Assembly: GCA_030272155.1 (NCBI GenBank)
Contig: CP126191.1
Location: 9,384,501 to 9,448,500, forward strand
Reading direction: 5' to 3'
Length of the DNA stretch: 64,000 nt
DNA from: Tetradesmus obliquus
Taxonomy: Eukaryota > Chlorophyta > Chlorophyceae > Sphaeropleales > Scenedesmaceae
Shown here: piece by piece, positions 8,854-61,318 of the stretch
How positions within the stretch are numbered: the first letter of the stretch is position 1
Layout: every line of letters starts with the position of its first letter
Notes under the pieces: model-generated
Seen by the model: the letters and a program-made list of their open reading frames with translations, nothing else
Told to the model about the DNA's origin: nothing
Databases searched by the model: none
Position numbers and translations under genes: made by a program

Positions 8854-11800
8854 ATGGCAGCACTGCAGGAGCTTGCGGTGTTGCTGCGTAATCTCACGCA
8901 GCAGGCCAGTGCCCTCTCTCACACGGAGTCTCTGGAGGACTACCAGAAACATGCTAAGGAGATGTGCCAGGGCTACAGCCTTACAGTGCAGCAGTTGGCA
9001 GGCGTGAGGGCCCAGCTGCAGTCGCTGGACAGTGCATCCTGGCAGCAGCTCAGCGACGATGGCGTGGCGATGGCTGATGCTACAAAGTAAGACAAACAGC
9101 CATGATACATATCACTGAAGTAGCATGGACCTCAGCATCAGTAATACCAGCACATCAGCATGGCAGCGGCGTGCGGGCAGTTCTGAGTGCATGAGCATGC
9201 AGTGCGCTCCAGCAGGCATGTCAGCAGCGTTGGCAGCTCTGCAGCATACTCGGTCATGCTTTGCGACGTTGCGCATATCGAAGGCCGTTGAACAGCACCT
9301 GCTCTATATCTGCAGTCGCGAGCATGAAGCAGAGCTGTATACTGATGTTGCCATGTGCGTGGCTTTCTGCAGGACCCTCAATGCCCTGATGCGGTATGGC
9401 ACAGTAGTGCAAGCCTGTGTGGCTGCTGCGCTGTACTCTTGGCTGCTGAGGGCACCTGGCGCCCCTGTGAGTCTACTTGGGGCTCAGCCTAACAGCATAC
9501 AGATATGTGCACGCTGCCAGAAGCTGCTGCTCCATCCGTCGTGGACTGTGGCTGCTGCAGTAGAAGCGGTTTGCTGCGGAAGTGCTGCAGCCACCCACAA
9601 GCAGCATGCCGCTATGGGCTGACGCACAGGCCTCTTCACGCAGCACAGCTATAGCAGCTGTGCTGCAGCCGCTGTGTTCGATGGAAGGCGCATGTAGGTC
9701 ATGGTCAGCTGCAGCAAACCACCAGCAGTGCACACTGAGACAGTGCCCAGCACTGATGCACCACTGTGAGAATTTGGTGCACCACTATGCGACGTCCGTG
9801 TCTGACGTCTGCCCTGTAACCCCTGCCTGCTGTGCAGGTGCACAACATGCTGGACACATTGACGTTCTCAGGCTGCCTGCAGCGCCTCAAGGAAACCGCC
9901 TTTGCCAGCAGCAGCGCCAAGCCCGGCAAAGGCAAAGCCGGCGCTAGCCAGCAGCAGAGCCAGGCGCAGCAGCAGGACGACGATGACGACGGCGATGACG
10001 AAGCAGCGCCAGCGCCTGCGCGTGCGGCTGCTGTGTCAGCATCTGCTGCTGACTTGGAGCTGTCGCTGTGCCTGTGTGTTGAGGCGCTGACAAATCTGGC
10101 AGCCATGGCGCAGCAGGTGCAGCTGCGCGGCAGCCAGGAGGTCCTGCAAGCAGCGCTGGAGGGCTGCTCCGACCTGCTGTGCTGCAGCAAGACCGCAAAG
10201 GTGCCAGCAGGCAGCAAGGGGCTGGGGTTGTCGGCAGGTGGGTGGGCCTGCAGCTGGAACGGCCCTGCAGTCATGCTGCTGCAACGTCGTAAATGACCTT
10301 GCATGGGCCGTGTTAATCCTGCAAGCGTGCAATGGTGTATGCGGTATGCGCGCCTCTGGCGAGCTGTCCAGCAGCTTGTCCCCTTGTGTTGTGCAGCAGA
10401 TTTGCATCACTGCGTCTTTGATGTGCCTCTTTTCCATCCTCGCTTCCTGTCCAACATGCTGCTACACTACCTTCACTGCTGCAGGCAGCATCAGCGCTGC
10501 AGCGTACTGCTTGCTGGAGGGCCTGTTTAGCCCGCGGCATGGCAGTATGGAGGACATGGCAGCAGTGGTGCTGCCGCGGCTGACGCCTCTCATGGTAGGG
10601 ACGGTTGCGGGAGGCGGCAAGCGCACAGCGTCGGAGTCGGCGGCAGCCAGGACTGCGGCTGTTACATTTGTGCGCAGTGCCTACAGGTGGGGAGGCTGCT
10701 GAAGTCATGCACACTAGCACTGCGGTGTATGGTTGGCGCAGGTTGGTTTTACGTGAAATCAAGCCAGCAAGGCTCCACTGCATGCTTGAGCAACCCTGAA
10801 GCATGCCCTTTGCTGCACAGCCCTGCAAGTGCAATATCCTTTTCTATGCAGCAGCGCCAAGCGCCTTCTCTGTGCTGCTGCCCCTGCACTTCCATCTCTT
10901 GCTGCAGCCGCCACCCAGAGATCCTGGATGCTGTTGCTGCGCTGGCGCGCCACGTGTGCCTCAAGGCACCAGACAAGGCCGACTGCCGCGCAGCAGCGGT
11001 CAAGGCAGCGTCAGAGCTGCTGGCGGACCTGCCGCAGTGGGAGCAGGAGCAGTTCACAGGCTTTGTGTACAACCTGAGCAGGACACCCAAGGTATGCGGG
11101 CGGTCATGGCCGAGCAGCAAGAGCAAGGAGGGTTTTCAAGAGCAGCACATACATGTGGGTGTGGTTGCAACTTTGCAGCGTACCTTTGTAGTCTTGCGCA
11201 GCTCTGATGCACACAGAGACACTGGTCAAGCCTGCCTTCACCCCGATGCTGCTGCTGCTGCTGTGCGATGCTGCAGCTTGGGCTGCGAACGCTGTCAGTT
11301 GGCCTGGCCAACAACTTGCTGATGAACTTGCCGGAGCCCTTCAAGCGCAGCACTTTTGCAGCAGCAGCGGCACAAGCAGCAGCAGCAGAGGACGAGGCAG
11401 CAGAGGCGGAGCAGGCGACAGCAGCGGCCACAACAGAGGCAGGTGGACTTGTGGCGACGCCTGCACCCACACGCCGGCCAGGGTCTGCTGCTGCGGCCAG
11501 CGCGCCTACGGGCATGGTGGTGGCTCCCTGGAGTGTTGTGGCACTTGCAGCGCTGCTGCAAAGGTATGAACACCGTTTTATGCTGCCCATAAGGCTGATC
11601 AGTGTCGGCGCAGTCAACTTTGGCTAGGTTTAGTAAAACTTGCAAACGCCTCAGCCACCTGGTGCTGTCACCAGCTGCTGCAATCCCAGCCGCCTGAGCT
11701 CTGCCCCAAACTGCACACCAGAGTCATATGGATAGCTCTCAAACCACCCCAGCAGCCAGCCTGCTGACGTAATCACCGCCGTTGCCGTGCTTCCATAATT

Positions 11801-14800
11801 GCCACCGCAGGTGCAGCGACAAGTCAGCGGTGGTGCGTGCGCGCGCGCTGTCAGACCTGGCTGAGGTGGTGGACTGCTTTGCCAGCCTGCTGGCGGAGCA
11901 CCCGGGCAGCGAGCAGCACCAGGTGGCTGAGGCATTTGTGGAGGGGCTGGGCGCAGCAGCGGCGCTGCAGGTGGGTTGAGGCATGGTGGAGGTGTGCGGC
12001 GCTGCTACAGCAGAGCAGCTGGTACAGTCACGTGCTTGCGGCGTTGAGTGGGCTGTGTAAGGTCCTTGGTGCTGCGTGAAGGTGGCTACACATGCTTAGC
12101 TGCGGCAACATTGCACATGCTCCTCCGCTGAATCTGTGCAAGTTCCATCCTTGCCTACCGTTGTTGGCAGTAACAACTGCTTTTTCGGCATGGCTGGCTG
12201 AGCTGCTGCAACATGCCTGTGCACCACTGCTGTCAGGTGCCTGAGAAACGCCAAGCAGCTGCTGCCAGCCAAGGCAAGAAGAAGAAGAAGGCCGGCGCAG
12301 GCAGGGCAGGCGAGGACTCGGAAGAAGATGATGAGCCAGAGGATGAGCAGGACGAGCAGCAAAGCCCCGGCGCTACTGAAGGTGCTGCAGCAGCTGCTGC
12401 AGGGGCAGATGCAGATGATGATGCTGGCATGGCAGAGGAGGCCGAGGAGGAGCAAGGCCGCAGCAGCCAGCGGCGTCAACAGCGGCGCCAGGCGGCTGGG
12501 TTTGTGGCATACATGCCGAGCCAGCTCAGCGTGGTGAGCTGCACATGGCTTGAGCATGCTCACTGTTCTAGCGGTGTATGTGTGTGCTGTTCTTGCGCCT
12601 GATTCCACAGCAGCAAAGCTGATGGGGCAGGATGTACTCAGGCCACCTTAGCCTAGGTGCATCAGCTCAGCGCATCACATCTGGCCGCCTTCTCCAGCAT
12701 GGGCAATGGCATCCATTCCTGCTGCCTTTGCCTTTGACTATACCCAACAAGGACACTTTGTGCACTTTGACACCCTGCTTGCAGGACTTGGCGCCTGTGA
12801 CGTCGCTGGTGCACCGTCGCTGCGGCGACGCCAAGGCCGCGGTGCGGCGCGGCGCGCTGCAGCTGCTGGAGGCGCTGCTGGTGATGCGTGCCAGCTGGCA
12901 GGGCTACGTGCGGCAGCTGCCCGGCAGCGCTGACCTGGCGCTGCTGGAGGCGGCCACGGCAGACCCGCTGGTGCGCGTGAACCAAGTAGTTCTTGTGCTT
13001 GTTGAAATCGGGTTTCATCATTGTCATGCCACTGCCAAGCGCTGACCTGGCGCTGCTGGAGGCGGCCACGGCAGACCCGCTGGTGCGTGGCCTGTACTGA
13101 TGCTTGTGCTTGTTGGAAGTAATGTTTCCCCGTTTCCTTTTGTTCACTGTTCGGATGTTATTGGGTTGTTACGTTGTTGTAGTAATGGGTGTTGCTAGCT
13201 ATGCACTGCAGCCGGCTGGCTTCCGGCACAGCTGGCCAGCGGTGCCTCTCATGCCTCCGCAGCCTGCCACTCACCTTCCACCTCACATGCAACACCACCT
13301 GTTTGTGCAGCTCACTGTGTGTGCCACTCCCTGTGCCGGTGGTTGTTCTGTGCTATGCAGGTGAGCGTGCGCAAGGCTGCGCTGGTGGCGCTGAGCACGC
13401 TGCTGGAGCTGTTCCCGTGTGAGCCCAGCCTGAGCCAGGCCTGGGTGGCGTCAGGGCTGCCGCTGGTGCGGGACGTGGAGGCAAGCATCCAGGTGCGCTG
13501 CTGCTGCTGCTGCTGCTGCGGAGGCTGAGGGAGCGCGACTGCTGCTCCTGCTGCGGCTGAGGGAATGTGGGTGGACTGAGAGTGCTGCTGTATGGGGTGG
13601 CGGTATATGTGGACATGCTCTGCAGCTGTATGGGGTGGCGGTATATGTGGACATGCTCTGCAGCTTTCAGCTGACAAGTGGCAACTCAGGTAGCTGTAGT
13701 GGAGGCAGCGTGTGCTCTGTGCTGCGACGTTGCGGTAGCATGCATTGATGGTGCAGTTAAAGCTTCGAAAGTCAAGCTACGTGTGTGTTGCGCGGAGCTG
13801 AGTTTTGTATGCGGCCTGGGCTGTCCCTGCTGCAGGACTGCCTGGCAGACTGGGTGGCAGCGCTGCTGTTGGACAAGGCAGCTGCAGCAGGCACTGCTAC
13901 AACCGCAGCAAACAAGAAAGCCGGCAAGAAGGCAGCAGCAGCAGCAGTTGCCGCTGATGATGCAGAGGGTATGGACTGGCAGGGGCCCGAGGCAGCAGAA
14001 GGAGAGGAGGCAGCAGCGGCAGCAGAGGGAGGGGCAGTTGCTGCGGCAGCATTTGCAGAGCTGCGGCAGCTGCTGGCTGCTGTTGCTGCTGTGGGGCGTG
14101 CGGCTGGCGCCTGCCTGGGCAAGCTGGCTGCTGCGATGGCAGCTAAGAAGAAGCTGAAGGCTGCTGCTGTGGCACGCGGCCTTGAGGCTGTGATTGCAGG
14201 TGGGTAGTTGGCCGGCCAGCTGCAAACACGCACACATGAACAGCAGCAGACGGTGCCTGGACCTATTGCTGCTGCCGATTATCTACTATTCTTTGACGGC
14301 AACTAGTGAACGCAGCACAGATGCAAAGAAACAAGTGCAGAGCTCCCTGCTGCAATGGAGCCTGACAATGCGTGCTGCACCACCTGCAGGCACGCCCACC
14401 GGCAGCTCCGCAGCGTTGGGCGCGTACATCCTGCTCAAGGAGATCGCCGCGCAGGAGCCCGCAGCGCCCAGCTGGCAGTTCCTGCAGCAGCGCTGGGCAG
14501 CGGTGCGCGCCAGCGCAGCAGCAGCAGCAAGCGCTAGTAGCGCAGGGGCTGCTGGCAGCCAGGCCAGCCAGGGTGCTGCTGCAGGCAGCGCTGCGAGGCT
14601 TGCTGAGGAGGCTGCTGCGCTGCTGCTGGTGATCAGTGAGACGGCCGCGGGCTTCCCTGCTGACCAGGCGCAAGCGCTGGCTGCGGAGCTGCTGCAGGTG
14701 AGAGGGGTGCAGGCTGCAGCTGCTGTAGGTTCACTGCCCAGCTGCATGTGCTGGGCCTGTGGGCAAGCTGCGCAGGCTAGCCGTAAATGTGCTGCGCTAT

Positions 14801-17800
14801 GTTGTGCTGGCTATAGCTTGCGAGGGGTGATCATCATCGGCAGTCCCAGAACACCTGCAGATGTTGCTGCGTAGGTGTTGAGTAATGAATTCTTGCTCTG
14901 TTTGTGTATGGTTGCAGCACACGCTGTCGTTCCAGCTGCCGCCCGCAGCAGCTGGGGCGCACGTTGCTGCGCTGTTCCGGCTGACAGAGGCAGCAGCTGG
15001 CAGCGCAGGAGACGGCCGCAGCAGCAGCAGCAGCAGCACTGCGGCTGGTGCAGCAGGGCCTCCTGCCCAGTGGGCGAAGCAGGTGTTTGCTGCGGCACAC
15101 GAGCAGCTGCGCAGGTGAGAGATGGTTGCTTTCTCTCTTTTGTATCACCTTGATGCACACAGGCGATGCACACAGTGCCCAGCTGCTCCATGCAGGCACA
15201 GCTGTGCTGTCATGCAACAGTACAGAGGCTGGAGGCTGCATGGCACTGGTCTGCATGCTTTATCCATGCAAGCTTGACACACATCATTAGCAGGGGTTAT
15301 GGGGCAGGACATGCTGACAACGCTTCCAAAACGCCCTGCATGCATGCCACCTCTATGCCGCCAGCAGTCCAACGATGCGGCAGACACAAAGCATGCCAGC
15401 AGCGAAATCCTCAAGGGTCTCCGTTGCCTTACAACTGGTAACACTAGCTTCATCTATATGATATATCAGTAATACTATTCCCTGCCACCTGCAGGTACAT
15501 CGACGCCTGCTCCGCGGCCGGCGCTGCGCCCGCCAGCCCCCAAGCCGACCACTCGGCCTGTGTCGCGCTGTTCACCCTGGGTGACGTGGCCCTGCTCAAG
15601 GCAGCCAAGCCGCCCAGCGGCCTGCTGGTGCTGCTGCAGGCCTTCACCGCGCACAAGTTCATCCAATCAGGCGCGCAGAACACCTACTACTCGCAGGCCG
15701 GCTCGCAGGCCTGCCTCTCACAACAACAGCCTGAGGGGGCGGCTGCTGCTGTGGATGCTGATGATGCTGGTGCTGCTGATGCAGCAGGGCTCCCTGCAAC
15801 GCAGGGGACAGGTGGCGGGCGGCTGGTGCCTGCGTGTGTGCAGGCGCACGCGTGGATTGCGCTGGGCAAGGTGTGCCTGGTGGATGAGGCACTGGCCAAG
15901 AAGTGTGTGCCGCTGTTTGTGCAGGTGAGGCTGCTGTGCTGTGCTGAGGCAGCAGCAGTAGACTGTGTATGTGTATGTCTGCTTGCCTGTCGTTGGTCTG
16001 GCGCTGCATGTTTTGTGCTGCTTCAATGGCCGCTTTCTGGGCTTTGGAGCTGGCGGTGATTGGGCAGTGCGTCAATCATGCTGGCTGCTGCGTTGCAAGA
16101 GCAGAGCATCATGTGCTTGATGCTTTACCAGCCTGTGCACACAGCGTGTTGCCTGCTAACTGTGCATCCGCCTGCAGGAGCTGGGCCGCTCAAGCTCCCC
16201 TGTGGTGCGCAACAACATCCTGGTGGCGCTGTCTGACATGCTCATCCAATACACGGCGCTGGTGGACGCACACATGCCGCGCCTGGCTGCATGCATTCGG
16301 TGAGCCGCAGCAGCAGCAAGGCGTGATGTCTGCTGGTCAGCTGCTGCCACGCAGCGCAGCTGCTGTGGTGTCTGTCACACGCTTTCTGTCACCTGCTGCC
16401 TTGCCGCACCCGTAGCAAACTTCCCCTGTGCTGCTGCTCACATGTGTAGTAACTGTCACGAGCTGGTTTGGCGGCACCGGCAGTGCCCACCTTTCACATG
16501 CATTTCACATGTAGTGTTCAAGCACCATACATGATAACTGCCTGCTGCCCCTGCTGTTCTGCTTGCCTGAGTCACCTGTACTGCCTGCTGCCCCTGTGCA
16601 GCGACCGCCACGAGCTGGTGCGGCAGCTGGCGTGCGTACCTTGCATATAAGCTGCCTTACCACACCTGCACTGCCTGCCTGCTGCCCATTTCATACTGCC
16701 TGCCTGCCTCACCTGCACTGCCAGTGACCGCCACGAGCTGGTGCGGCGCCAGGCGCTGGCGCTGCTGGCCAACCTGCTCATGAAGGACTACGTGAAGTGG
16801 CGCGGGCCGCTCTTCCACAGGTGGGCTGGTGGCTGTTTGCTCGCCCCTTGTTAGTGAGTGCAGTGGCGCGGGCCGCTCTTCCACAGGTGGGCTGGTGGGC
16901 TGGTGGCTGTTTGCTCGCCCCTTGTTAGTGAGTGCAGTGGCGCGGGCCGCTCTTCCACAGGTGGGCTGGTGGGCTGGTGGCTGTTTGCTCGCCCCTTGTT
17001 AGTGAGTGCAGTGGCGCGGGCCGCTCTTCCACAGGTGGGCTGGTGGGTGGTGGGCTGGTGCTTGCCACAGGTGTAGCTGCTGCCTGCAGCACTGATGCCT
17101 TTGGCTGATTGCATGTTACTGTGGTTTGCTCGGTCCTTGTTGCTGAGTGCAGCAGGCCCTGCTGCTTACAGTCTGCTGCTGCCGCCACCCACCACCCCCA
17201 TCGTGTGCAACGCCTGTGGCCACCCCAGGTTCACACTGGCGCTGGTGGACCCCGCTGCCCCTATTGCTCAGCCTTGGTCTCTGCCTTACAGTCTGCTGCT
17301 GCCGCCGCCAATCACTGCCCCTGTCATGTGCACCGCCGCAGGTTCACGCTGGCACTGGTGGACCCCTCCCCTGCTGTGCGCCAGCTGGCAGAGTACCTGC
17401 TGCGCGACACACTCGCCACAAAAGCCCCGCTGCTGGCCTACAACCACTTTGTGGAGGCGCTGTTTGTGCTCAACGGCTGCACTGCGGGGCTGCACGGCGC
17501 GCGGCTGGGCGCAAATCTTGCGGGAGCCGGTGGGAGTGGGAGTGCAGCAGCAGCGAGTGACGCAGGCGGTGCAGCAGCAGCGGGCAAGCAGGGGCAGCAT
17601 GAGGAGGGTGCTGCTGGTGGTGGTGAGGAGGGTGAGGAGCTGTCGGAGGCGTGGATGGCTGCGCCTGTGCAGTTTACACTGAAGGGCAAGCACAACAGGT
17701 GGGCCTGCGCGCATGCACGTGCATCACGCGTAGGGCTGTTGCAGAACCGGCAGGGTGTTATTTATGGACGTTGTTGTTGTTGCCGTGGTGTTGCTGACAC

Positions 17801-20800
17801 AAGCCGGGGCCGTTGAGTCCCGCATCCTCTTTGCCTAACTGCTGCTGGCAAGTGGTGCCGTGTGTAGTCTCACACCATAAGACACCACCAACCCTGAGTG
17901 TGCCTGGCATACGCCCCTGTTATGACTCTCTGCCTTGCAAAGGTACCACCCAGCATGGACTTCTGCTCTGCAAAGAAACCTGCCACCTGCTCTGCCCTTC
18001 CCCAAACCTGCCACCACCACCACCGCCACCACTCCCACCACTCCTGTCCAAAACCCTGCAGGGCGCCCCGGGACCTCATCTACGCCTCGCTGCTGCGCTC
18101 CATGTCTCCCGAGCACAAGTTCAGCAGCGCGGCCAAGCTGTGTGGGGAGGTGCTTGCGGGCGTGGCTGATGGGCTGCTGCCGCTGGCCGAGTGCGAGGAG
18201 GTGCTGCGCGACGCGCTGAGCCTGCTGGCCAGCAAGGACATCAAGGTGTGTTATGTTGTTACAGCGTCTGTTATATTGTTGTTACTGATTTGTAACAAAA
18301 TAAGTTATCGGATAATGCGTGCTGAACGGCCGGGTGTTATGTTGTGATGTGATGTATGCCAGTGCAGGCAGCAGCTGCAACCCCTTCTCTTTTGTAACCC
18401 AACAGCCACGTGACAAGCATGGTTCAATCCATCCTGCTACTGAACAACGACAACACTCATTACGCGGCGCAGGTGTCTGCCAGCCGCCTGGCTGCCTCAG
18501 ACGAGGAGGAGATGACGCAGCCCAGCCAGGCGGCCGGCGGCGGCTCCGCAACCGCCGCGGAGGCTGCTGCGCGTGCGCGCGGCAAGCTGGTGTCTGCGCT
18601 GATGAAGCGGCACCTGGTGGAGCAGGTGGTGCCGGTGCTGGTGGAGCTGCGGCGGCTACTGGCAGAGGTGCGTCACAGTCAAACCTGGTCAAACCTGGTC
18701 AAACCTAGTCAAAGTTGACTGGGTTGACTTTGTGTTAGGCATCTTCTGGCCGGTGCTTCATCACTGTCGTGACTGCCGCGCTTTGAGTGGAAGGTAGGGA
18801 TGATTGGCATGTGACATTGGCCGCCTGCGCGCCGCTTTGCGCAGTGCTGGCGCACATCCCAGCAGCTTTGGTCGTTGGCCAGTGTTTCCCCTGCTGCTGA
18901 CAGTGCTGCTGCTGCTGCTGCTGTTGGGTGTTGCCTGCAGCTGAAGCACCCGCTGCTGGTGGAGCTGATGGGCTGCTTTGCTGCGCTGCTCAAGGAGTAC
19001 AAGAGCGAGGTGGAGGACATCCTGGTGGCTGACAAGCAGGTGAGGGCGTCATCATCATCATCACCATCATCGTCATCATCATCACCATCGTCGTCATCAT
19101 CGTTGTCATCTTCATATTTTGCAGTGCCTCAAAACATGTGGACATCCTTGTGGTTACAATGGCACTCCACATGCTGAGCTTCACTGTGAATCCACCAGCC
19201 CTCGGCGTGAAAACATGCGCAAAGTGCCGCGTGAGTCGTGGTTAGGGCAGCAGAGTGACCAACCACCCGCTGCCATACATGTGGGTGTACTGTTTGATCT
19301 GCAGCTTGCCAAGGAGATCCTGTATGACATCAAGCAGGCAGAGCAGGCCAAACAGCAGCAGCAGCAGCAAGCAGCAGCAGCAGCAGCAGCAGCGCGCGGC
19401 ACTGCTGCCAGGGCTGCTGATGCAGCAGCAGCAGCAGCAGCAGCGCTGGAGGCCGGCTCGCCTCCCCCTGCTGGCGTCATGCCAGGCACACCTGTTGCAG
19501 CAGAGGTGCTGGCAACGGCTGAGCGGCAGCGCAGGCAGCAGTTGCAGCAGCTGCGGCAGCAGCAGCAGGCGGCTGCTGCTGCTGGGGACATGCCGGCACC
19601 CTCACCCCGCCCGCCACCAGGTGTGTGCTGTGTGCGGATCTGTGGCGCGTCTTTACGCTTGGTCTTTGTTCAGTCTTGCCGTGGCTTCCCAAGCAGGGTG
19701 CATTGAACACAGAATGGACATGCCAGCATCAGAACGGCTGCCGCCAGGCATTGTACAGTTTGTAGAATATGGTGTTGCAATGCTGTCGGATGACATTCTG
19801 GCCATAACATACTGCTGCTGCGCAGGCCACCGCACGCCTGGGTCAGCAGGCGCCGCCGCAGCGCTGCAAACGCCCGCTACCGCAGCAGGCACAGCCAGCC
19901 GCTCCCGCCTGGCCAGCAGCAGCAGCGCCGCACGCCAGCTGCAACCCGCAGCAGGCTCCTTTGAGACGCCTGCTGCAAAGACGCCAGCATCAGCAGCTGC
20001 TGCTGCTGCCAGCGCTGGCGCGCGTGTGTCGGGCGCAGGCATTGGCGCAGGCTTCAAGACAGTTGTGGCGTCGCCCGCGCCGCTGACAGTCGCAAAGCGC
20101 GGCACGAGGGCCGGCCGCCGCACGAAAGGCGCTGCTGCTGCTGCTGCTGCAGATGAGAATGCAGAGTCTGGAGGAGGGGCAGGTGAGGCTTTCAGATGTA
20201 TACGCTGCTGGGTTACTGCAGCGCCAGTGCGTTGATATGTGTTCATTGGCTGCTATTTCGTTCCAGTGCTGGCATGTTCCTCACAGCAGCCCAGCCACAT
20301 CAGGTCTGTACCTGCAAAAGGGTGCGCCGCAATCAGCTGGCGACACCTGCTGCAGCTACCTCTCTGCATCAACTGACGCTGCTGCGCCGCTTCTGCTGCG
20401 CCGCCCCTGCTTCTGCTGCGCCACCCCTGCTGTGCCGCCTTGCTCTATTGACTCCAAGGCCACTGCCCTCCCAGCGTCAGCAAGGCAGCCTCACAGCTGC
20501 TGCAGCGCACATCACCATCAGACGCAGCCACCAACGTGCTGCTGCCCAGCCCCTACAGCAAAGATGCCGCTCGGCAGTGGAACATCCCACAGCATGTGGC
20601 CACAGGCGAGAAGCAGCAGCAGCGCCGCGCAAGGGCTGGTCAGCAGGCGGCAGCTGCTGCTGCTGAGGGTGATGCTGTGCCATCTGCAGGTGCCAAGGCC
20701 GGCAGGGGAGGCAGGTGGGTCAAGCCGCGTGGTTCAGCCGCGCTGAAGTTGAAACCAGTGAAAGCTGTAAGAGCAGCCCTGGGTTGCTATGATTGCAGCT

Positions 20801-24342: not shown

Positions 24343-24374
<32 letters not shown>

Positions 24375-24717: not shown

Positions 24718-24761
<44 letters not shown>

Positions 24762-25653: not shown

Positions 25654-25686
<33 letters not shown>

Positions 25687-37350: not shown

Positions 37351-37385
<35 letters not shown>

Positions 37386-45600: not shown

Positions 45601-45653
45601 AGTCACACCCACGTCATCTCTCTTGCTGCTGCCGCCGCCGCCGCCGCCGCCGC

Positions 45654-45713
<60 letters not shown>

Positions 45714-45885
45714 AGGCTACATCATCAAGGCCATGCACCAGCTGCTGAAGGAGCACGACTACCTGCCGCAAAAGAAGCGGCTGTACGTGGAGTATGGTTG
45801 CAGGGGCGACTGGCCGGAGCTTAAACCCAAGGAGTGGAACCCTGTGCTTGAAAGCCTGGAGCGCAAGCCGGTGCCAGAGGCGTGA
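42605..45885 (+). CDS. SKL2: Shikimate-kinase-like protein (SKL2 type, degenerate P-loop)
   Basis: Five exons join in phase: 42605-42923, 43870-44058, 44641-44772, 45010-45159 and 45716-45885 (319 residues). Residues 1-40 resemble a chloroplast transit peptide, followed by a polyGln/polyAla linker. The kinase-like fold is seen as TSITIIGDDTQLNWAVCQAL, VLKGMKDQFRVCIATVGDGA and YGSIIIWLDEVDKR, which line up with the plant SKL2 blocks GTSIYLVG, VLKQL..VCAGDGA and ISIWID. The Walker A GxxxxGKT is replaced by GDDTQLNW, so shikimate phosphorylation is unlikely; the family is described as probably inactive in plants. A C-terminal domain (YIIKAMHQLLKEHDYLPQKK) follows. Assignment depends on three weak blocks and could be revised by a profile search. 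Intron 1 contains a tandem array of exon 2 starts. Confidence 0.68.
43088..43910 (+). repeat. Tandem array of ~97-bp units carrying the exon 2 acceptor and exon start
   Basis: GCAG|AGGCGCTGTC(C/T) plus CCCACCAGCACCAGCATCAC recurs at about 43181, 43275, 43368, 43477, 43577, 43673, 43772 and 43869, with a partial ninth at 43088. Only the last continues into the coding exon. Units at 43577/43772 and 43673/43869 are near-identical pairs, giving a higher-order repeat of about 195 bp. Confidence 0.95.
45079..45395 (+). repeat. Duplicated 3' part of SKL2-like exon 4 in intron 4
   Basis: GCGTGGCGGGCGGCGGCTTT through GCAACAAAAGCCACAGGTGC is present at 45090-45163 and again 228 bases downstream, ending near 45390, with few differences and an intact GTGCGT donor. 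A weak third copy (GGGGAGAAGGGCTTTGAC) lies near 45451. Confidence 0.9.
45640..45715. repeat. (CCG)n(CTG)n tract at the acceptor of SKL2-like exon 5
   Basis: Six CCG units followed by about nineteen CTG units end in CTGCAG at the exon 5 acceptor. Confidence 0.9.
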
Positions 45886-46738: not shown

Positions 46739-49700
46739 ATGCTGTCGGCTGCTGCGTTGCAACAGAGCTGCAGCTACAGCGCAGCACAGGCAATCAGCCC
46801 TCTCACAGCAGTGCTATGCGCCCTGGGATTGCTGGTGAGTGACTGCAGCTGCTGCAGTTGAGAGGCTCTTCTATGACATCAAGTCCTGCTTGCAGGACTG
46901 CTGTTGCTACTGCTTCCAGCACCTCTGACCTAATATTGTGTTGTACTAGACATACTGTTCCTCATGAGCTGCTGCTGCCTGGTTGGCAGCCAGTCGTGAG
47001 CGATGAATCTCCAGATGCATGTCGTGCCTCCACCCGCTGGCATCAGCTCTAGCGTTGTGCCGTTGCGGTGCTACATCGCTGTCCCTGCGGCTTCTGTCAC
47101 TCAGCACTTGCTTTACATGTCCCTGTATGCGCACCCCTGAATAAAGCACATGCAAACCTCCACGCCCGTCACCACATACGCAGCTATGCCTCACCTGTTT
47201 TGCTGCTGCTGCTCAAAACCTGACATCAAACCTATTTCACCGTTGCTTTGCTTTTGCTTCTCCTGCCCGGCTGCCAACTTCCACAAAAAAAAACATAAAC
47301 CTCGCTATAAACAAGATCTGGGTGCCCTGGGCGCTCAACCGCTGGCGGTTCAGGCACATCCCGGGGCCCTGGGCACCACCTGTGCTGGGCAACTTGCTGC
47401 GCCTGGCGCAGCATGACCTGCACGGCTACTTGGAGCTTTGCAGGAAACGGCACGGCACGCTGTTCAAGGTGCCTTGAAAACGCTGCTGGTTTCTGGTTAG
47501 GCAGAGGCTGGCATGGCATGTCCTGTGGTCGGTGTTACTACCTGCAGCGGCTGCATGCATGCATGCTGCGCAGGGGCACGGCATGCTGTTGAAGGTGCGG
47601 TGTGCAGGGCGCAAACAGCATGTCAACACTTGCCGCTTGCAACAGGCTGGTGCCAGCATACATCCGCAGGCGTTGACCATTTGCTGGGTCTTGTCTTTGG
47701 CTCTGTTTGCAACATCTGCCTACACTGCCTGCAGCGTCACTGCACTGCACAAATCACTGCAAGGCGTTCTGACACTCCTTCTACCGCTGCTCGTGCTGCT
47801 GACATCGCCACTATCAGTGCTCATCCTGAACGTGCCTGCATGTCCATGCTGCTGCGTTGCTGCTGCTGCTGCTGCTGCTGCTGCAGATCTACATCGGCTC
47901 CAACATGATTGTGTGCCTGGCCGAGCCTGGGCTGGCGCGCCGCACCTTCAGCAAACTGTCCTGCAGGCACAGCGGCGTGCAGCTGGTGGCGGGGCCGCAG
48001 GATTGGGACTTCTTAGTGGACGGCCTAGTAGGCGCAAAGTGAGCAGCTGTTGGTTTGTTATTTCATTGTGTTATGTTATGATATTGACGTCTTGCGTATG
48101 AGGTGTGCTGTGGCGCTGCGCAGCTGGTGGCAGGGCCGCAGGACTGGAGGACTTCCTGGTGGATGGCCGAGTTCGCGCAAATTGAGCGACCGCTGCAGTA
48201 ATGTTGTGACATTATGTTGTATTATGCTACTGACGTCATGTCATTGACATTCATGTGTGCATCCAGCACGCTTAACAATGCAGTCTTGTGTGTTACTGCT
48301 CTCGCTGCAGCGGCACAGCCTGGCGCACGCTGCGCACCGCGTGGCAGCCTGCCTTTGGCTCTGCTGCGTTGGAGGGCTATGCCGGCGGCATGAATGCAGC
48401 AGCAGAGGAGCTGCGGCAGAAGCTGGAGGTTGCTGCTGCTTCAGGAGAAGGGGTCGAACTGTTTGGGTGAGTGGGGTGCAGCAGATGGCAGCAGAGACAG
48501 ACGCTGCGTACAGTTGAGGTGTGCAGCACAGCTCCAGCTGTGTGCATGCAGAGAGAACCTTGGCATTACAGCTGGGCAGTGGCTATCCAGTTGTACTGTC
48601 CAGCTGTACTGCCCAGCTGTTCTGTCCAGCTATACTGCCCAGCTGTTCTGCCACCTGTGCTTGATTCTCCCTGACTGTATGGCCAGATTGAAGTGCTCAG
48701 CAGTTGTGCAGTGACGTATGGCAGCACAGCCGGCGGCTTATGTTGTTTGATGGCCGAACGGAAGACGCATCCCTGGGCAAACCAAGTGCCATACCACTCA
48801 GCCGCTGCGGGGTTATCTGCTGCTGTTGCAGTGCGCACCCACTGCGTGGGTTGATTGCATACACCGCAAAACTGTAATATGTTGAAGCATTATACAGCAT
48901 ATGTGGTGTCTGGGTGACAACGGTTCACGAGTTTTGGTGTCATAGCTGACCTGTCGCTGCTGCTGCTGACCTCCACGAGGTTCGTGTCACGAATTTTGGT
49001 TCACGAGTTTTGGTTCACGAGGTTTGGTTAACGAGTTTTGGTGTCACGAGGTTTGGTTCACGAGTTTTGGTGTCATAGCTGACCTGTCGCTGCTGCTCCT
49101 GACCTCTGCTGCTGCTGCTGCTGCTGCTGCAGGGAGCTTGGTGCCATGACAATGGACGTGGTTGGCCAGGCCGCATACGGGTGAGCTGCTGAAACATTGA
49201 GTGCACAGGCATCACAGCGCGACATGCGCATGGAGCAAGTTATGCTTTATAGTCACAGCCTTGACAGCGCTGTGTAGCTTACTGCATTTGCTGCGCCCAA
49301 GCTCACGTCCAGCTCAGTTTGGAAACGCACCGGGCATTTGCTTGTGTTATCCGTGCTGGTTGCATGTTGTGCAGCCACTCCTGCATCACGCAGCGTCAAT
49401 ATCACGCATCCTGGTAACACAGCTGCGGTGTGTTCATGTTCCTGCAGAGTCGACCTGCACTCCTTGCAAACACCCGAGCACGTCACGCAGCAGCAGCAGC
49501 AGCAGCAGGAGGAGAGCAGCCTGCTGGCAGCCATCAAGGCTGTGTTTGAGGGTGGGGGTGTCGCCAACAGCAGCAACTACCTGCCGCTGGTGCTGCTGTT
49601 CCCGCTGCTGGCGCCGCTCGTGCAAGCGCTGGCGTACCGCTGGCCTGACGCCAAGCTCGCACGGTTAGCCAAGGTGCGATTTCAACACTACATGTTCGTT

Positions 49701-52481
49701 ATAACCGCTTGAATCTTGTGACGTAAATGCGGCTCAGTGCTGTTACTTGGTAAGACTTGATGTAGTGCTCAGTCCTGCCCGCCAGCAGCTGCTATGACAC
49801 TCGATGCTGCTTGCTGGCAGCTGCACCTGTCGTGCCCACTTTGAGATGCACAGCCGGGCAATGCAACACTGACAACATTACGAAATCTGCCACCCTACTG
49901 CTGTACATCAGCCTGCCCTGCTTGCTCCTGTGGCGGGCCTGCGTCGTGCAGGCAAGGGCGAAGATACGGCAGGTCAGCATGCAGCTGGTACAGGGCTGGA
50001 GGGGCCATCCCCAGCAGCAGCAGCAGCAGCAGCAGCAGGACGCTCAATCAGCAGGCAACGGCTGCATTACTCCGGCAGGCGGCGTACCGGAGCCTGCAGC
50101 GGGAGCGTTGTCAGGCACTGCCGGCGCGCCAGGCACGTTTCCTGGCCTGATGCTGGCTGCGCGGGACAAGGAGACTGGGCAGCAGCTGACAGATGAGCAG
50201 GTGCGGTGCGCTGGCAGCTGATGGTTCAATCTTGCGACCTTGCTGCATAGCAAGAGAGCTGCCGCCCTACGCTTTCTGCTGCAATCAACAAGTAGCTCAA
50301 ACAGTAGCTCAAGCATGCTCTGCTTGTCAGCGCGCACTTCTTGCATGTGCACTTGTTTAATCAGTGTTGTTTCCTGCAGCCTTGGCTTTCACACTGCTCC
50401 CTCCACTATCATTGTCCACAGGGGCAGGAAACAACCACGCATCATCTGCAACTGTACTCCCACCACATATGCTGTTGCTACCAAGGGTCACGCCGGACGG
50501 TTTCTCAAGTTCCTGTCCAGGTGCTGCTGCTGCTGTTGACGGCGGAAATGCTGCTGCTGCTGCTGCGCTGCGTGCAGGTTGTGTCGCAGCTGAACACATT
50601 CCTTGTGGCTGCCTTTGAGACGACTGCCAGCGCCATCGCGTGCTGCATCTACTTCATTGCGCAGCACCCCCAGGTGCAGGGGGCGCTGCTGGCTGAGGTG
50701 GATGCCTTTGGCAGGCAGCGGCGCGTGGCCTTCAGCGATTTGGACCAGGTGCGACACGTGTTTTGAATGTAGATTGTGGTTATTCTTTGCTGCTGTCAGC
50801 CCGTACTACTTAGTAAGCTATGCTATGCTGCCGCCAGCCTGTGAGCAGCGCATGGCATGCAGGGACTTGGATCAGGTGAGAGGCAGGGCGCCAGCAGGGT
50901 GTGGGTGTTTGCTGCTTCACTGCTGTTGGCCTGGCAGCCAGTTTGTAGTGTCGCAGCTGTTGCCATTGGCAGGCAGTGGGGCGTGGCATTCGGCGCTTTT
51001 AGTTCAGGTATGGTCGCATGTTGAGAGTGTAGATCTCTGTTATCTTTTGCTGCTTGTCAGCCCAGAAGCTGCGCCATACCACAATTTTCAGCTGCTGCTG
51101 TGCTGATGGGTTTGTTTTTTGTTTGAATGGTGTGCGTGCAGTTTCCCCAAGCGGACGCCATCCTGAAAGAGACGCTGCGGCTGATACCGCCAGGGGCCAT
51201 TGCTGCTCGTTTCACTGAGCAGGGGCACCAGCTGACACCTGAGGTAAGCAGCAGCAGCAAGCAGCTGTGTGGCCTGCTCACTTTTGCAAAACCTGCTGTG
51301 AGAGACCAGATACCTCATGCATAGCAGCATAGGATGCTGCTGCGTTGTTGTGCTACTGTGTGGCAATCGCACGGACGGTACCACTGCCTGCCTGCTGCTG
51401 CTGCCTGCTGCAGGTGTGGCTGCCGCCTGGCACGCCGCTGTTTGCGTGCATCCACGCGTACCAGCGCGACCCGCAGCTGTGGCCGGCGGCTGAGCAGTTC
51501 AGGCCAGAGCGGTGGCTGCAGGTGTGTGCCCAATGTCAACTAAAGGTGCACCTTTACTAGTGATGTGATGTTCATGCACGATTGCTTTGTGATGCTGCTT
51601 GGGATGATGTACGTTGTGGAGCGCAGCATGGCGTTCAGTTGCACATGGCAGCCCCCAGTGCATGCAGCGGTCGCCTCGATTGTGCAGCTGGGCTCGTTTA
51701 AAGTTGCGCTGCTTCTGATTTTATTGCAGCAGATGACTGCCGCGCCTGTTGCCACCTGTTTTCTGGACGCGCTTTAGTGCACATGCACGCATTTGTGTGC
51801 TTCACTTCTTGCCTTGCATATTACGGGTTGAACCTGGTTTGCCTCAAGCCTGAAAATTTTCATGCGGCACTTTGCAGGGCACGCACACAGCTGCACACGC
51901 TGCGCAGGCAATATGAATTGATCGTACACAGGGTATGGACTGCAACGCGACTGTGTGTCTTGCCTGCTGGCTTGCAGGACGGGGCCAGCGCTGCTGCTGA
52001 GGTCCTGCAGCCAAGCACGCCTGATGCGTACTCGCCGTTTGGCATTGGGGGCCGGCTGTGTGTGGGCATGCGCTTTGCCAACCAGGTGGGAAAGATCAGC
52101 TGTGCTCGTTGGGAAATAGGTCAAAAGTTGTTGTTGGTGGTGACATGTGTAGGCCACACGCTTTGCCTCATGGACATGCATGTTGTTGACAGAGAGTTTG
52201 CATATGTTGTGTATGTTGTGTATGGTGTTCTATGCTGTGCTGGACACCATCTGTGGGCTGCATGGTGCTCAGCAGCAGTTCTCCTGCAAGCGCAACGGTT
52301 GCACCTACGCTGTTTGGCTGCTGCTGCATGCCGCCTGCAGGAGGTTGTGATTGCGCTGGTGCGGCTGTACCAGTGCTTCACGTTTGAGCTGAAGCCTGGG
52401 CAGGTGCCGCTGCCTGTGAAGCAGACATTCGCGCTCATACCAGCGCAGGGGCTGCGTGTGAGAGTGCAGAAGAGGAGCTAG
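46739..52481 (+). CDS. Cytochrome P450 monooxygenase
   Basis: A membrane-anchored haem-thiolate oxygenase; the substrate is unknown. Twelve exons join in phase: 46739-46834, 47316-47468, 47887-48038, 48311-48466, 49133-49180, 49448-49673, 49952-50200, 50578-50748, 51142-51243, 51414-51521, 51978-52085 and 52341-52481 (569 residues). The N-terminal anchor ISPLTAVLCALGLLIWVPWA spans the first splice junction, followed by the hinge RHIPGPWAPPVLGN. Canonical motifs are WRTLR (138-142, helix C), AAFETT (371-376, helix I), KETLR (426-430, ExxR), FRPERW (480-485) and the haem loop FGIGGRLCVG with Cys515. The IPGP hinge and helix-I form resemble CYP3/CYP711-clan enzymes, but a family number needs alignment. 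The exon 2 acceptor (AACAAG|ATC) has a poor pyrimidine tract and is the weakest junction. Introns contain copies of exons 2, 3 and 8 edges. Confidence 0.9.
47441..47600 (+). repeat. Copy of P450 exon 2 end in intron 2
   Basis: CGGCACGGCACGCTGTTCAAG|GTGCC at the end of exon 2 recurs as a close copy (GGGGCACGGCATGCTGTTGAAG|GTGCG in two blocks) at about 47571-47598, keeping a donor-like GT. Confidence 0.75.
47979..48235 (+). repeat. Duplicated P450 exon 3 end and donor region
   Basis: GCAGCTGGTGGC(G/A)GGGCCGC through CGCAAAGTGAGC (47979-48044) recurs at 48120-48186. In the second copy the donor GT has become TT and several codons differ. Following intron sequence (TTATGTTGTATTATG-like) is also shared. 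Confidence 0.88.
48590..48656 (+). repeat. Short tandem repeat CCAGCTGTACTG in P450 intron 4
   Basis: Repeats of TGTCCAGCTGTACTGCCCAG with variants (TTCTG, TATACTG) alternate at 10-20-base spacing over about 65 bases. Confidence 0.75.
48918..49090 (+). repeat. TCACGAG(T/G)TTTGGT array in P450 intron 4
   Basis: About eight copies of TCACGAGTTTTGGT or TCACGAGGTTTGGT are flanked on both sides by GGTGTCATAGCTGACCTGTC, showing that a larger block, including the pre-acceptor (CTG) region, has been duplicated. Confidence 0.88.
50708..51065 (+). repeat. Degenerate copies of P450 exon 8 end and donor
   Basis: The exon 8 end (GGCAGGCAGCGGCGCGTGGC ... TTGGACCAG|GTGCGA plus TGTAGATTGTGGTTATTCTT) is echoed at 50966-51062 (GGCAGGCAGTGGGGCGTGGC ... 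TTCAG|GTATGG plus TGTAGATCTCTGTTATCTTT) and more weakly at 50845-50880 (GACTTGGATCAG|GTGAGA). Confidence 0.8.
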
Positions 52482-57249: not shown

Positions 57250-59222
57250 CATGCGCTGCAGGCTGGCAGACTTGGAGGAGCGGCAGGCGCGCCTCGCACG
57301 CGGCGCTGACAGGTGTGTGTGTGTGGGGGGGGGGGGGGGGGGGGGGCTCGCTGCATGTGCTGATCGGATGTAGCGCAGGCGTTGGGTGGGCTGCCGCTGC
57401 TGCTGGCTGTTATATAGTGTGTTGTAGGTTTCAACTTTCTCAGGACCTGGCGCGCTCACCTGCTCTGTGTGTGTACACTGCGCGTGCATGCATGCAGGTA
57501 CCAGCCTGAGCAGCCGCAGCAGTGCACGGTGGCGCGCGCAGAGCAGGCAGTGGCGCTGTGGGGCAGGGGCAGCGTCAGCAACATTGGCTTCCCTGCGTAC
57601 TACGCTCTGATAGCAGCATACAGGCTGGCAGGCCGGCATGATAAGGTGGGGCTGGGGAGCAGGGGTTCAGGGGTTTTGGACTGGTTTGATCCTTGCAGGA
57701 AGCTGTTTGGCTTGGTTTGAACCTTGCCGGCAGCTGCTTGGCTTGGTTGGAACCTTGTTGTGCGACTGTCCTGCAGGCTGTGGAGGTCTTCCAGGCCGGC
57801 AGCCAACTCAGCAGCAGCAGAAGCAGCAGCTGCGGCAGTGTGCTGTTGTTTACCGCTCCAAATCCAACTGTCACTGACCTCTGCACTTCCTACATATCTG
57901 TTTTTGTTGTCCTGCAGGCCGTGGAGCTCTTCCAGGCGCTGCGGGCAGCCAATCAACCTGATGCGCTGAACAAGCACTACAGGCTGTGGGTGGCTGCATG
58001 CTCGGCAGCAGTGCGCTCGCAGAACTACGAGGCGGCCAACGAGTGAGTCTAATATATGCAAGGGCTGCCGGACTGCTGCAATCGCAGTAAACTTGCCTAG
58101 TGCAGCAGGTGCACTGCACCGTGCCTGCTGTTGCTTTTGTTAAAGCTCGGAAGCAGTGCGCGCGCAGAAGTAGGAGGTGGCTGACACATGACTGAGACAG
58201 AAGATGCAAGGCGGTCTGTTTGCTGTGGCTTGTCTTTCTGGGAGCTCAATCACTGTGATCGCATATGCAGCAGGCTGCATTCCCTACCTGTGTTGTGTTG
58301 CAGCTGCTGCCGCGGCTGCTGCAGCTGCACCTACCTGCTTTTGTGCACGTGCGGATCGGCAGCTGCTGCCTGTGTTTTCAACCACGGCTGTCGTCATGTC
58401 AACCCCTTACTTTGTGTCTCTTTTGTGTTACTTCCCTGTGTGTTTGCGTGTGTGCATGTGTGGCCAGGCTGGCGCGCATGTTCAGCACGCGCCAGGTGCC
58501 CTTTAGGGACATCGACTACCGCGCACGCGTGGCAAACATCTACAGGTGGGTGGTGGCTGCGCTGCTGGTGCTTCACCGTCATCATATAACCAGCTGTGTA
58601 ACCAATCAGATCGCCAGTCATGTCACCGATAACACCATCGGCCCGGCTAACTGGTGCGGAGGGAAGTTGCGCGTCTGGTGCTTGTTGTGTGATGCGGCGC
58701 CTTGCCTGTCGGATTGCTGCAGATCACAAGGACAGGAATGGGTTTCATCTAAGGATGTACAAGGCAGTGCATCTGGCAGAAATTGATTTGCTTGAAGCTC
58801 GGCATGGGCTGGGTCTGGCACATGCAGCTTTTCAAAAAAGTGCTGTCACCCACGCCCATGCTTCCCCGTGTTCACTGTGCCGCTCCTGCCGATATTCAAC
58901 AGCCCCAAAGACGGTGGACAAACCGCTGTTGAAAAGAATCGGCTGCGCAACTGCTCGCTTGTGCTTGTGGTGCGTGTGTTGCTGCAGGGCGCTGGTGCGT
59001 GGCGCGGCTGCATGCGGCAAATGGGAGGACGCCATCTACTGGCTGCAGGAGCTCATAAACAACCAGGTGATGACAGTTATAACTGTTATTTTGATTATCC
59101 TCAACATGTTCTGTGACATGTTATTTTGTTAGTTGCTGATAGCCCGATGAATCTCTCCTTGGTTGCTGCGTGGCAGTTTGCTGCGCGTGCTGTCCCACCT
59201 GCAGGCATCTAAGCCTTTTTCG

Positions 59223-59276
<54 letters not shown>

Positions 59277-61318
59277 AGTCGCTGGTGCCTGTGCCGCCCG
59301 AGGCGTTCATGGCAGTGATGCTGCCTGCTGCTGCTGCTGGGCGCATGGACGTGGTGCGCGTCATGATGGGGGCGGTGGACCAGCAGCTGGCGCTGCAGGT
59401 GCGATGCTGCGGTACTGCTCAGCCCAACAGCGCAAATTAGCGGCATGAATGCATTAGTTTGTGGTTGTCCAAGTGCATAGGGATGCTGGAGTAGACGCGG
59501 GGCAGCCGAGGGCGGTTGTTTGGTGGGGAACATGCGATGTGCTTTTGTGCACGGCACGCAGCAGCCGGCACGGCGCCGCAGCAGGTCCGCAGGATTCGCA
59601 TGGGTGCAGCAGGCGGCACTGCCTAGACCGCCCGTGGACTGCATTGCTGCGGTTGCTGCTGCTAATGCCAATGCTGTGATTCTGGTGTCATGTCTGTGTT
59701 GCTGCATGCAGGGCGCCAAGCCGCTGGTGTACCATCCAGAGGAGCTCACCTTTGTCATCAAGGCAGCAGGCGCAGCAGGCGATGCTGACCTCGTGGCTGA
59801 CGCGTGGACCCGCCTGAAGCTCGACGTACAGCAGAAGCCCACCGCAGCCTCTCCCAGCCTTCTAGGCCTTCTGGGGCCGCTGGACAAACTAAATTCGGGT
59901 GGCGTGCAGGTGCAGCGGAAGCCGCAGCAGCCGAGCGTCGCTGCGTTCAAAGCCGTGGTCAAAGCATATGTTGACTGCAAGGACTTTGGCAGGGCGCTGC
60001 AGCTGGTGGCGGAGCTAGAGGAGGTCTATGGAGGCACGCGGGCGACCTCGGTGTATGGAGGGCTGTCCTTCCTGCCGATCGATGAGCTGAAGAGCGAGGC
60101 CGACATTGCGGCACTGTTCATGCAGCTCAAGGCGCGCAAGGTGAGCAGCTGCTGGTGGTGACAGTGACAGTGAGGCTGCATGTGGCATGTGAGCATTCTG
60201 CATGTAAGCAAGCCAGATAGTGTGGTGGGGCAGGGGGCTGGGGATGTGCTGGAGGCGTGGTGCTGCGCTGCTGATAACAAGGGTTGGGCGAGTTGGCGCT
60301 GGCTTGCAGGAAACGCGCGGTGTGCTGTGGTGGCTGTTTCAGGACATTGTCTTTCGAGTGTTGGTCCCTGCTACCTGCTTGCCTGCAGGACACTGGCCCG
60401 CTTTTCAGCACAGCTGCATTTCGCTGTGCAGTGCATCCGGCGTCTGCCCTCTGCTCACAGCTGTCTGTGACATACGCGCTGCCTGCCTGCTTGCAGGACG
60501 TTGGCCACCCGGTCAGCACAGCTGCGTTGCGCTGCGCATCTGCCCTCTGCTTACAGCTGTATGTCTCTTTTGCGCTGCCTGCTTGCCTGCAGGACGCCGG
60601 GCAGCCAGTCAGCACCCCCATGATGAACGTGGTGGTCCGTGCTGTCGGGCGCCTCGGCAACACTGAGTCAGCTGGCAAAACCTTCGAGGTGTTCGGGGCG
60701 TGGGGCCTGCAGCCTGACGCAGACAGCTACAACGCAGTCATGGAGTCCTGCGAGGCATCTAAGAAGTTCACTGCGATCGAGGGGCTCATCGCCTACATGA
60801 GCAGCAGGGGCGTGCAGCCGAACCTACACAGCTGGAACCTGCTGCTGTCAGCGGCAGCAGCGGCACAGGATGTGGCTGCTGTTGAGAGCGCGGTGCAGCG
60901 CATGCTGGCGTCTGGGATGCAGCTGCTGCGCAACAACGCCGGCAAGGCGCTGAAGCTCGCGCATGAGCAGCGCAGCGAGAGCTTGCTGCAGCTGCTGCGG
61001 CAGGCGAATGAGCAGCAGGGGCTGGGCATGCAGCCGCAGGTGTTCAATGGCTATTGGCGGAGGGTGGGCAGCAGCAGCAGCAACGGAGGTAGCAGCGCTG
61101 GCGGGCGTGCGGAAGTGTGGAAGCCGGGGATGCCACGTCAGCAGCAGCAGCAACAGCGGCAGCAGCGAGTGCAGGAGAGCCGGGGGCAGGACAGGGAGCA
61201 GGGGGATGGCAGGCAGCTGCAGCAGATGCTGGAGCAGCAAGGGGGCGGCGAGACCGAGGAGCGCAAGTCTCTGCGTGCTGGGCTGGCAGCTGCGCTGGGT
61301 GCTGCCATGAACCAGTAG
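55560..61318 (+). CDS. Pentatricopeptide-repeat-type organelle RNA-binding protein
   Basis: Eleven exons join in phase: 55560-55739, 55967-56925, 57112-57180, 57262-57312, 57498-57645, 57918-58042, 58468-58545, 58988-59066, 59279-59398, 59712-60140 and 60593-61318 (987 residues). The N-terminus (HMLQLLHSASPL, MLRRLAPTDVT, IRGFAADVAS) looks like an organelle presequence. A disordered Ala/Gln/Ser region follows. Helical-pair repeats of about 35 residues then appear, such as FPAYYALIAAYRLAGRHDKA, VELFQALRAAN, AFKAVVKAYVDCKDFGRALQ, and the clearest, STPMMNVVVRAVGRLGN with ADSYNAVMESCEASKKFTAI and NLHSWNLLLSAAAAAQD. These fit the PPR consensus. The protein ends in a Gln/Arg-rich tail. Exon 3 is uncertain because its acceptor is weak; the other junctions are good. 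A related helical-repeat family cannot be excluded without profile scores. Confidence 0.7.
57323..57346 (+). repeat. G24 homopolymer just after a PPR-gene donor site
   Basis: Twenty-four consecutive G bases follow the donor AG|GTGTGTGTGTG of exon 4 by about ten bases. Confidence 0.85.
57650..57935 (+). repeat. Duplicated acceptor region of PPR exon 6
   Basis: CTGCAGG(C/C)(T/C)GTGGAG(G/C)TCTTCCAGG occurs at about 57773 and 57913. The second starts exon 6. GGTTTGAACCTTGC(C/A)GG and GCTTGG units also repeat at 57690-57755. Confidence 0.8.
59223..59278. repeat. (CTG)n tract at the acceptor of PPR exon 9
   Basis: Eighteen CTG units run directly into the acceptor CTGCAG|TCG. Confidence 0.9.
60382..60605 (+). 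repeat. Three copies of the last PPR exon acceptor
   Basis: A TGCAG|GAC(A/G)(C/T) acceptor with CAGTCAGCAC-like exon sequence begins at 60389, 60497 and 60593 (spacing 108 and 96). Intron sequence CTCTGCT(C/T)ACAGCTGT separates them. Only the last copy continues into the exon. Confidence 0.92.

Follow-up and report, generated by a model that had tools for sequence, protein, structure and literature searches.

Exon edges copied into neighbouring introns of a green alga: junction-crossing tandem duplication and a possible part for gene conversion

Why should the introns of several genes hold, close by and in the same orientation, copies of the very exon edges that they adjoin? The question is raised by 64,000 nucleotides of the green alga Tetradesmus obliquus (GenBank assembly GCA_030272155.1, contig CP126191.1, positions 9,384,501 to 9,448,500), a stretch here called the window. 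An initial annotation, made from its letters alone, had proposed that exon edges with their splice sites recur in the introns of five genes there, and had ascribed this to a process that repeatedly duplicates short junction-spanning segments. The copies are indeed present in all five, and donors and acceptors are both affected. Thirteen window junctions pass the filter described below, one SETD6 repeat being entered as donor and acceptor both, and four more lie outside it (acceptors at 16538 and at 40875/41075/41241, a donor at 47449 and the donor side at 58000). At the filtered junctions the nearest copy is 74 to 301 bp away, a little wider than the 65-230 bp first given.

The material is one assembly of 104.7 Mb in 17 contigs, of which 314 kb were compared: the window, 200 contiguous kb of C2 and 50 of C6, the positions of the last two having been fixed before inspection. 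Five short stretches with CCT genes were added later, beyond the 314 kb. Local self-comparison employed dust and CAG filtering and a threshold of at least 32 bits, CAG-rich matches and repeats less than 30 bp apart being removed. Gene models came from a small custom gene finder, cautiously seeded with exons recognised by eye, and they are imperfect, since, of the 21 exons with which it was seeded, it regains only 15 at 70% overlap.

How strong is the pattern, and how general? Local non-simple repeats of at least 32 bits in the 314 kb are direct in 210 cases and inverted in 3 (57 and 2 in the window, 93 and 1 on C2, 60 and 0 on C6), and one shuffle each gave 1 direct and 0 inverted for the window and 1 direct and 2 inverted for C2. 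The comparison of exon edges with introns used 60-mers, and introns with an exon score below 5 or a length outside 60-1500 were removed, leaving 181. At a score of at least 50, 18 of 362 edges matched their own intron as against 5 of 3620 comparisons with other introns, an excess at the same locus over shuffled pairs, the control that the initial annotation had asked for; the own intron reversed gave 3/362 and exon interiors 1/312. As several matches share one array, they are not to be equated with separate events. In the window alone the corresponding figures were 6 of 78 edges for own introns and 2 of 780 for others, on C6 9 of 38 edges matched their own intron, and on C2 3 of 246 (reversed, 2/246). 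Counted by intron at a score of at least 40, there were matches in 7 of 39 in the window (two of the seven in a CAG-rich gene, 29300-33560, without listed repeats), 8 of 19 on C6 and 3 of 123 on C2, the last being near the chance level because chance at this score is about 1% per edge (36/3620). Exon-edge copying is strong but regional in the sampled genome: the high density supposed for the whole of it is borne out by the window and C6 and not by C2. Junction-crossing duplications were nevertheless found on C1, C2, C6, C12, C15 and C16. Introns with a copy are longer, as had been claimed (median 391 nt, n=18, against 263 nt, n=163).

Some features of the repeat landscape may be set down on their own account. 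The first 10 kb of the window are free of listed local repeats. C2:1011400-1013200 forms a dense degenerate repeat field of ~1.7 kb that lies clear of predicted exons and has 37 listed pairs of at least 36 bits. Over the 42 gene models of the 314 kb a higher local-repeat load goes with lower intron GC content (rho -0.44, p 0.004); lower GC content as the cause was rejected, for the correlation vanishes within C2 (rho -0.01, 30 genes).

What does a copy contain and where does it lie? It holds ~20-160 nt of exon and usually the splice site, often with just a few intron bases. Relative to the native site, copies of donors are found on the downstream side and those of acceptors on the upstream side, the arrangement that a tandem duplication must produce. 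By eye some 9 of the 14 junctions with several copies show regular spacing (for instance 143/149/145, 122/120, or seven steps of 94-108), which indicates tandem origin and makes the independent copying of junction segments to random distances unlikely for the arrays. There are clean arrays in which match length equals distance (74, 98/196 and 234-251 bp), and there are copies 98-99% identical to their source, an identity that makes it plausible that, as had been suggested, duplication is still ongoing. Two clean tandem duplications on C6, in a mitochondrial carrier gene (C6:2016211-2016697) and in Tic110 (C6:2026797-2027591), are read by the gene finder as in-frame micro-exons, of 30 nt and 45 nt respectively, which are putative exons. 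In 18 of 22 spaced pairs of at least 85% identity the intron-side end of the match is 1-25 nt beyond the junction; in the other 4 it falls short of the junction, and in none does it exceed 30 nt. Similarity past the copy ends reaches z >3 in three of 20 pairs, each with one such flank (z 3.2-4.6), and the remaining 17 have none. GT or AG is retained in 53 of 62 copies, with splice scores that by eye resemble the native ones; at the far ends of most of the 62, a few exceptions apart, scores resemble those of random intron positions, and most copies, being without far-end splice sites, were rejected as full extra exons.

Could the spacer between source and copy be what moves? Apart from same-gene copies, stretches of simple CAG and a few weak, short matches, the 31 spacers are not shared within the 314 kb, and four loci taken with their spacers each match the genome once, so a mobile spacer element or introner was rejected. 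Five genome searches, in which only the best candidates were scored, turned up neither a second haplotype nor a close paralog at another place; that with CCT met other CCT genes at 78-81% identity.

Is tandem duplication followed by decay sufficient? The sets for exon and intron similarity, for match length against distance and for codon position exclude copies with an exon part below 20 nt or identity below 0.5. Of the 35 copies with an exon identity of at least 0.9, 26 have an intron similarity below z 3.5; a simulation of neutral tandem duplication gave the same for 95 of 463. The ratio of match length to distance (L/d), taken for the nearest copy only at each junction, is below 0.75 at 15 of 21 well-preserved junctions, against a simulated neutral median of 1.0 and a 10th percentile of 0.93; three of the fifteen (22471, 16301 and 116910) are pieces of clean arrays, and twelve remain. 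Copies of the best-preserved class are more alike than their flanks, as concerted evolution by gene conversion expects, and plain tandem duplication with decay does not readily give this class.

The nature of the differences is as telling as their location. By codon position, unique differing sites number 6/8/36 (third position 36/50) in the well-preserved class with unlike introns, 44/47/91 among the less preserved copies and 30/29/52 among copies whose introns are still alike, and the first class differs from the other two pooled (74/76/143) at Fisher p 0.003. The best-preserved copies look coding though they are intronic, because their differences sit mainly at silent third positions. The process first proposed, repeated local junction-spanning duplication, is upheld by same-orientation repeats far above controls, but it leaves this class, with its lost intron half and silent bias, unexplained.

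A survey of CCT genes by profile search with PF00118 was independent of the gene models, overlaps being judged by eye. Overlapping segments of at least 20 positions occur in 4 of 11 CCT gene loci, and for three of the four, on C12, C15 and C16, exon-edge copies were confirmed in the DNA; the C4 overlap, with no DNA repeat at 32 bits, was set aside as alignment slack. The C16 gene has four acceptor edges and the C15 gene six donor edges within one intron. Six comparisons, which leave out one 41-nt C12 repeat and in which a codon difference common to several copies enters each time, give codon positions of 4/6/45 (45/55 third) and 76 synonymous versus 11 nonsynonymous codon differences, the exception being an acceptor copy of C15, at 5 to 4. 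In the last 75 exon nt of the C15 donor edge and its five intronic copies there are 9 variable sites, all of them silent third positions, and one of these shows all four bases, while the first 60 intron nt are 0.52-0.72 alike, against 0.61 +/- 0.04 when shuffled, with one pair at 0.98. Elsewhere, an AMP-binding profile search gave, by eye, two overlaps (26 and 32 positions) in one gene, and one with adaptin a single overlap of 22 positions among ~6 genes.

How are duplication, direct orientation, geometry, the decoupling of exon from intron and the synonymous bias, all observed, to be brought together? We see at least two populations of copies, one of neutrally decaying tandem duplications and one in which a coding-like exon half stands beside an unlike intron. 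The latter we are inclined to ascribe to conversion that is anchored in the exon and draws on a diverse pool of alleles; this would account jointly for the silent differences, the decoupling, the geometry of the arrays and the way in which matches end close to splice sites. The steps would be as follows. Local tandem duplications of ~60-300 bp are frequent in parts of the genome and, where the unit crosses an exon-intron junction, splicing would keep to the outer original site, which would leave the extra exon edge inside the intron and the gene functional. For a subset of copies, the exon half would exchange with the exon, or with its other alleles, by short-tract gene conversion; transfer from exon to copy would be neutral, and damage carried from copy to exon would be removed by selection. 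The intron half, with no such anchor, would drift until pairing became impossible, and the synonymous diversity of the population would have to be high enough to feed in silent variants. That the best-preserved copies are old junction-crossing tandem duplications with an exon half kept in step in this way with functional exon alleles is put forward tentatively, as something that may well prove wrong. More doubtful again is the notion of introns as archives of the adjoining exons, in which live-looking edge copies would be refreshed from functional alleles and up to six versions kept side by side.

Several considerations weigh against conversion. A test for conversion tracts was negative, copy mismatches not being clustered (Fisher p 0.25, n=18, low power; copies with fewer than 25 exon nt or fewer than 4 mismatches, and the C2 exon repeat at junction 55553, were excluded). 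Young copies with similar introns give little sign of it (37/598 at codon positions 1 and 2, against 394/2277 in the intron). Conversion within a single lineage predicts, by an arithmetic estimate, ~40% synonymous differences, and therefore the observed excess needs high allelic diversity. At 14 two-copy junctions the changes on the copy branch are spread over codon positions (30/34/48) as in neutral decay, and therefore the wider set holds many neutrally decaying copies; 47 of these 112 changes come from one C2 exon repeat, without which the figures are 15/22/28. The simulation had small indels only, and frequent large intron deletions could narrow the gap between it and the data. The shortness of a match alone limits its reach into the intron, and on an arithmetic estimate the junction is only mildly off-centre. 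Finally, the cuts at identity 0.9, z 3.5 and L/d 0.75 were chosen post hoc, with the data already viewed.

Might the copies instead be real alleles in the wrong place? The strongest rival, in our judgement unlikely, is an assembly artefact that strung together the exon-intron boundaries of divergent haplotypes or strains. It would suit the allele-like, multi-state silent differences of the C15 and C16 CCT genes, exons that are alike beside introns mostly unlike, ends near the limit of exon conservation, units often of ~100-160 bp and the strong regional differences. However, the assembly has but 17 contigs and the sampled 250 kb contain no N, the genome searches just mentioned turned up no second haplotype among the best candidates scored, and clean arrays of ~32, 74 and 98 bp are unlike joined reads. 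Neither the many nonsynonymous changes (the less preserved class has 93 such sites) nor the exon-part gaps in 14 of 62 copies, two of which are alignment shifts in the 74-bp array, are expected of alleles.

The sharp ends, direct orientation and spacers mostly without homology would also be in keeping with staggered-break repair, in which a junction overhang of 40-110 nt is filled on both sides and joined via unrelated filler to leave spaced direct repeats. The single genome match of four loci with their spacers fits as well, and the passages of PMC4202315 on Daphnia neointrons propose a small-scale precedent. This is improbable, though, as the source of the copies at large: it predicts neither silent differences nor regular arrays, and spaced templates placed at random would, when they fall in introns, cross a junction in 14% of cases, against 22 of 33 genic pairs observed.

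Then there is survivorship, with uniform local tandem duplication, selection that purges exonic units and tolerates junction-crossing ones, and exon-containing pairs that stay recognisable longest. Units of ~150 bp and introns of ~260 bp lead one to expect ~70% junction-crossing by an arithmetic estimate, orientation and geometry are accounted for, and copies with similar introns do decay neutrally, by codon position, by rates within alignments and on copy branches alike. This likely accounts for the decayed copies and is likely insufficient for the best-preserved class: simulated exon halves of high identity seldom have the unlike introns seen in 26/35, simulated L/d is rarely below 0.93, and synonymous bias does not follow. 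As the whole story it is hardly probable. Least of all, and very unlikely, would the copies be alternative exons translated and under protein-level selection, since, for all the synonymous bias and the few that are open and in frame in the models (SETD6-like 40492-40614 and the 30-nt exons of the mitochondrial carrier), most have far ends no better as splice sites than random intron positions, the C15 copies hold only part of the exon with two in a frame other than the native one, and cases such as C6 26310, where a very young copy stands beside an unlike intron, could be explained only if introns changed far faster than silent sites.

If the copies are real, small-scale duplication, splicing fidelity and gene conversion are joined in one readable record, with a bearing on how the correct splice site is chosen among similar-scoring copies, on intron growth and on exon conservation outside exons. 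Gene prediction and homology searches would be led astray by the copies too; the custom gene finder did call several of them exons. Were they an artefact, there would be a class of false local duplications perhaps common to other heterozygous or mixed assemblies.

The genes and copied junctions of the window are collected in Table 1. The identities first given to the five genes stood for condensin, SETD6, P450 and PPR; that of the shikimate-kinase-like gene ('SKL2') is weak, its best PDB match being AtSK2 at E 0.085 and a Pfam search of its model giving no match. For such searches proteins were assembled from model exons, some exons being omitted. The SETD6-like protein, with copies omitted, matches SETD6 chain 3qxy at E 6.2e-18, and its pair at 40486..40843, with scant similarity past the ends, gave a single match in the genome search, as did the shikimate-kinase-like pair at 45080..45414, which has 5 synonymous and 0 nonsynonymous codon differences. 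On C6 the identities are Tic110 (E 5.5e-164) and mitochondrial carrier (E 3.6e-50), and for the C2 model 171809-176466 a Pfam search gave no match. Other parts of the window may be noted. A stop-free CAG-type repeat frame of 3444 amino acids (22259-32593, plus strand) runs on into exons at 32033-33560 that are SET-domain-like by eye; on the minus strand, visual inspection suggests a mitochondrial ATP synthase delta/epsilon-type subunit at 882-2102 and a homocysteine S-methyltransferase-like gene at 7190-8404; and a 53-bp tandem repeat, apparently intergenic, lies in 63362-63636, with 2.6 copies at 63368-63504 and another downstream.

Table 1. Genes of the window and their copied exon edges (window positions)
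Feature	Position	Strand	Remarks
NCAPD3-like gene model	9847..21210	+	25 exons; Cnd1 domain E 3e-14
NCAPD3 donor edge of exon 12785-12970, with copy 13038-13118	12926..13118	+	identity 45/45 in the exon part, divergence in the intron part
NCAPD3 acceptor edge (DRHEL exon)	16538..16755	+	intronic copy 16538-16632, native side 16675-16755
NCAPD3 donor edge in clean 74-bp tandem array, ~3 copies	16792..17053	+	
NCAPD3 acceptor edge	17165..17366	+	copy 17165-17253, native 17285-17366
SETD6-like gene	36455..42341	-	model 36455-40919, N-terminal coding read by eye to ~42341
SETD6-like donor edge 39140-39224, with copy 39004-39089	39004..39224	-	88%
SETD6-like donor edge 40050-40098, with copy 39749-39797	39749..40098	-	301 bp apart
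SETD6-like donor edge 40734-40843, with copy 40486-40595	40486..40843	-	96%; 104 exon nt and 6 intron nt
SETD6-like acceptor edge 40875-40961, with two upstream copies	40875..41296	-	copies 41075-41161, 41241-41296
Shikimate-kinase-like gene model	42827..45885	+	weak homology
Shikimate-kinase-like acceptor edge (exon 43870-44058)	43090..43910	+	~8 repeats at 94-108 bp steps
Shikimate-kinase-like donor edge 45080-45184, with copy 45307-45414	45080..45414	+	
Cytochrome P450 gene	47141..52481	+	model 47559-52481, first exon read by eye; P450 E 2e-55
P450 first-exon donor edge 47449-47472, with copy 47575-47598	47449..47598	+	exon read by eye
P450 exon-2 donor edge, with copy	47979..48240	+	76%
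P450 exon-8 donor edge, with copy	50703..51063	+	75%; exon and intron parts equally decayed
PPR gene model	57251..61318	+	PPR_2 E 4.6e-13
PPR acceptor edge	57767..57952	+	copy 57767-57806, native 57908-57952
PPR donor-side copy 58145-58181 of 58000-58036	58000..58181	+	ends 6 nt before donor
PPR acceptor edge, three tandem copies	60370..60615	+	exon identity 70-78%

Where does this stand among known systems? Tandem exon duplications and mutually exclusive exons are whole exons with both splice sites, unlike the copies in the alga, which are exon edges with one. What the two have in common is that copies of an exon adjoin it (PMC6071210, PMC9013439). Tandem genomic duplication of AGGT segments is described in passages of PMC3443670 as a route of intron gain, and there too a tandem duplication carries splice sites; in the alga, however, it seems to extend an existing intron and add decoy sites rather than make a new one, the intron seeming older than the copy because most copies contain intron bases. 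In Daphnia, direct repeats of exon-terminal bases within introns are likewise found, and in the parts of PMC4202315 that treat them the 4-12 bp repeats of newly gained introns are read as scars of staggered breaks, with internal breaks proposed as a route to longer introns. The alga has ~20-160 nt, several copies at some junctions and silent differences; its spaced pairs fit the type of repeat that flanks filler, but its regular arrays and silent bias do not. Short direct tandem duplications are also common where break ends are repaired through fill-in by CST and Pol alpha-primase (PMC8355091), a repair mechanism offered for the alga as an analogy only, and the pertinent passages of that paper are silent on similarity limited to exons and on silent bias, both of them features of the alga. 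The repair-mediated proximal duplications or doublets of vertebrates, at a mean distance of ~1.2 kb (PMC2671141), are again short copies near their source, and the passages concerned do not connect them with splice junctions. Among titles and abstract openings of the open PMC literature no report of the pattern in algae was recognised. Set beside these known cases, that of the alga is one of larger units, dense where present, and coding-like.

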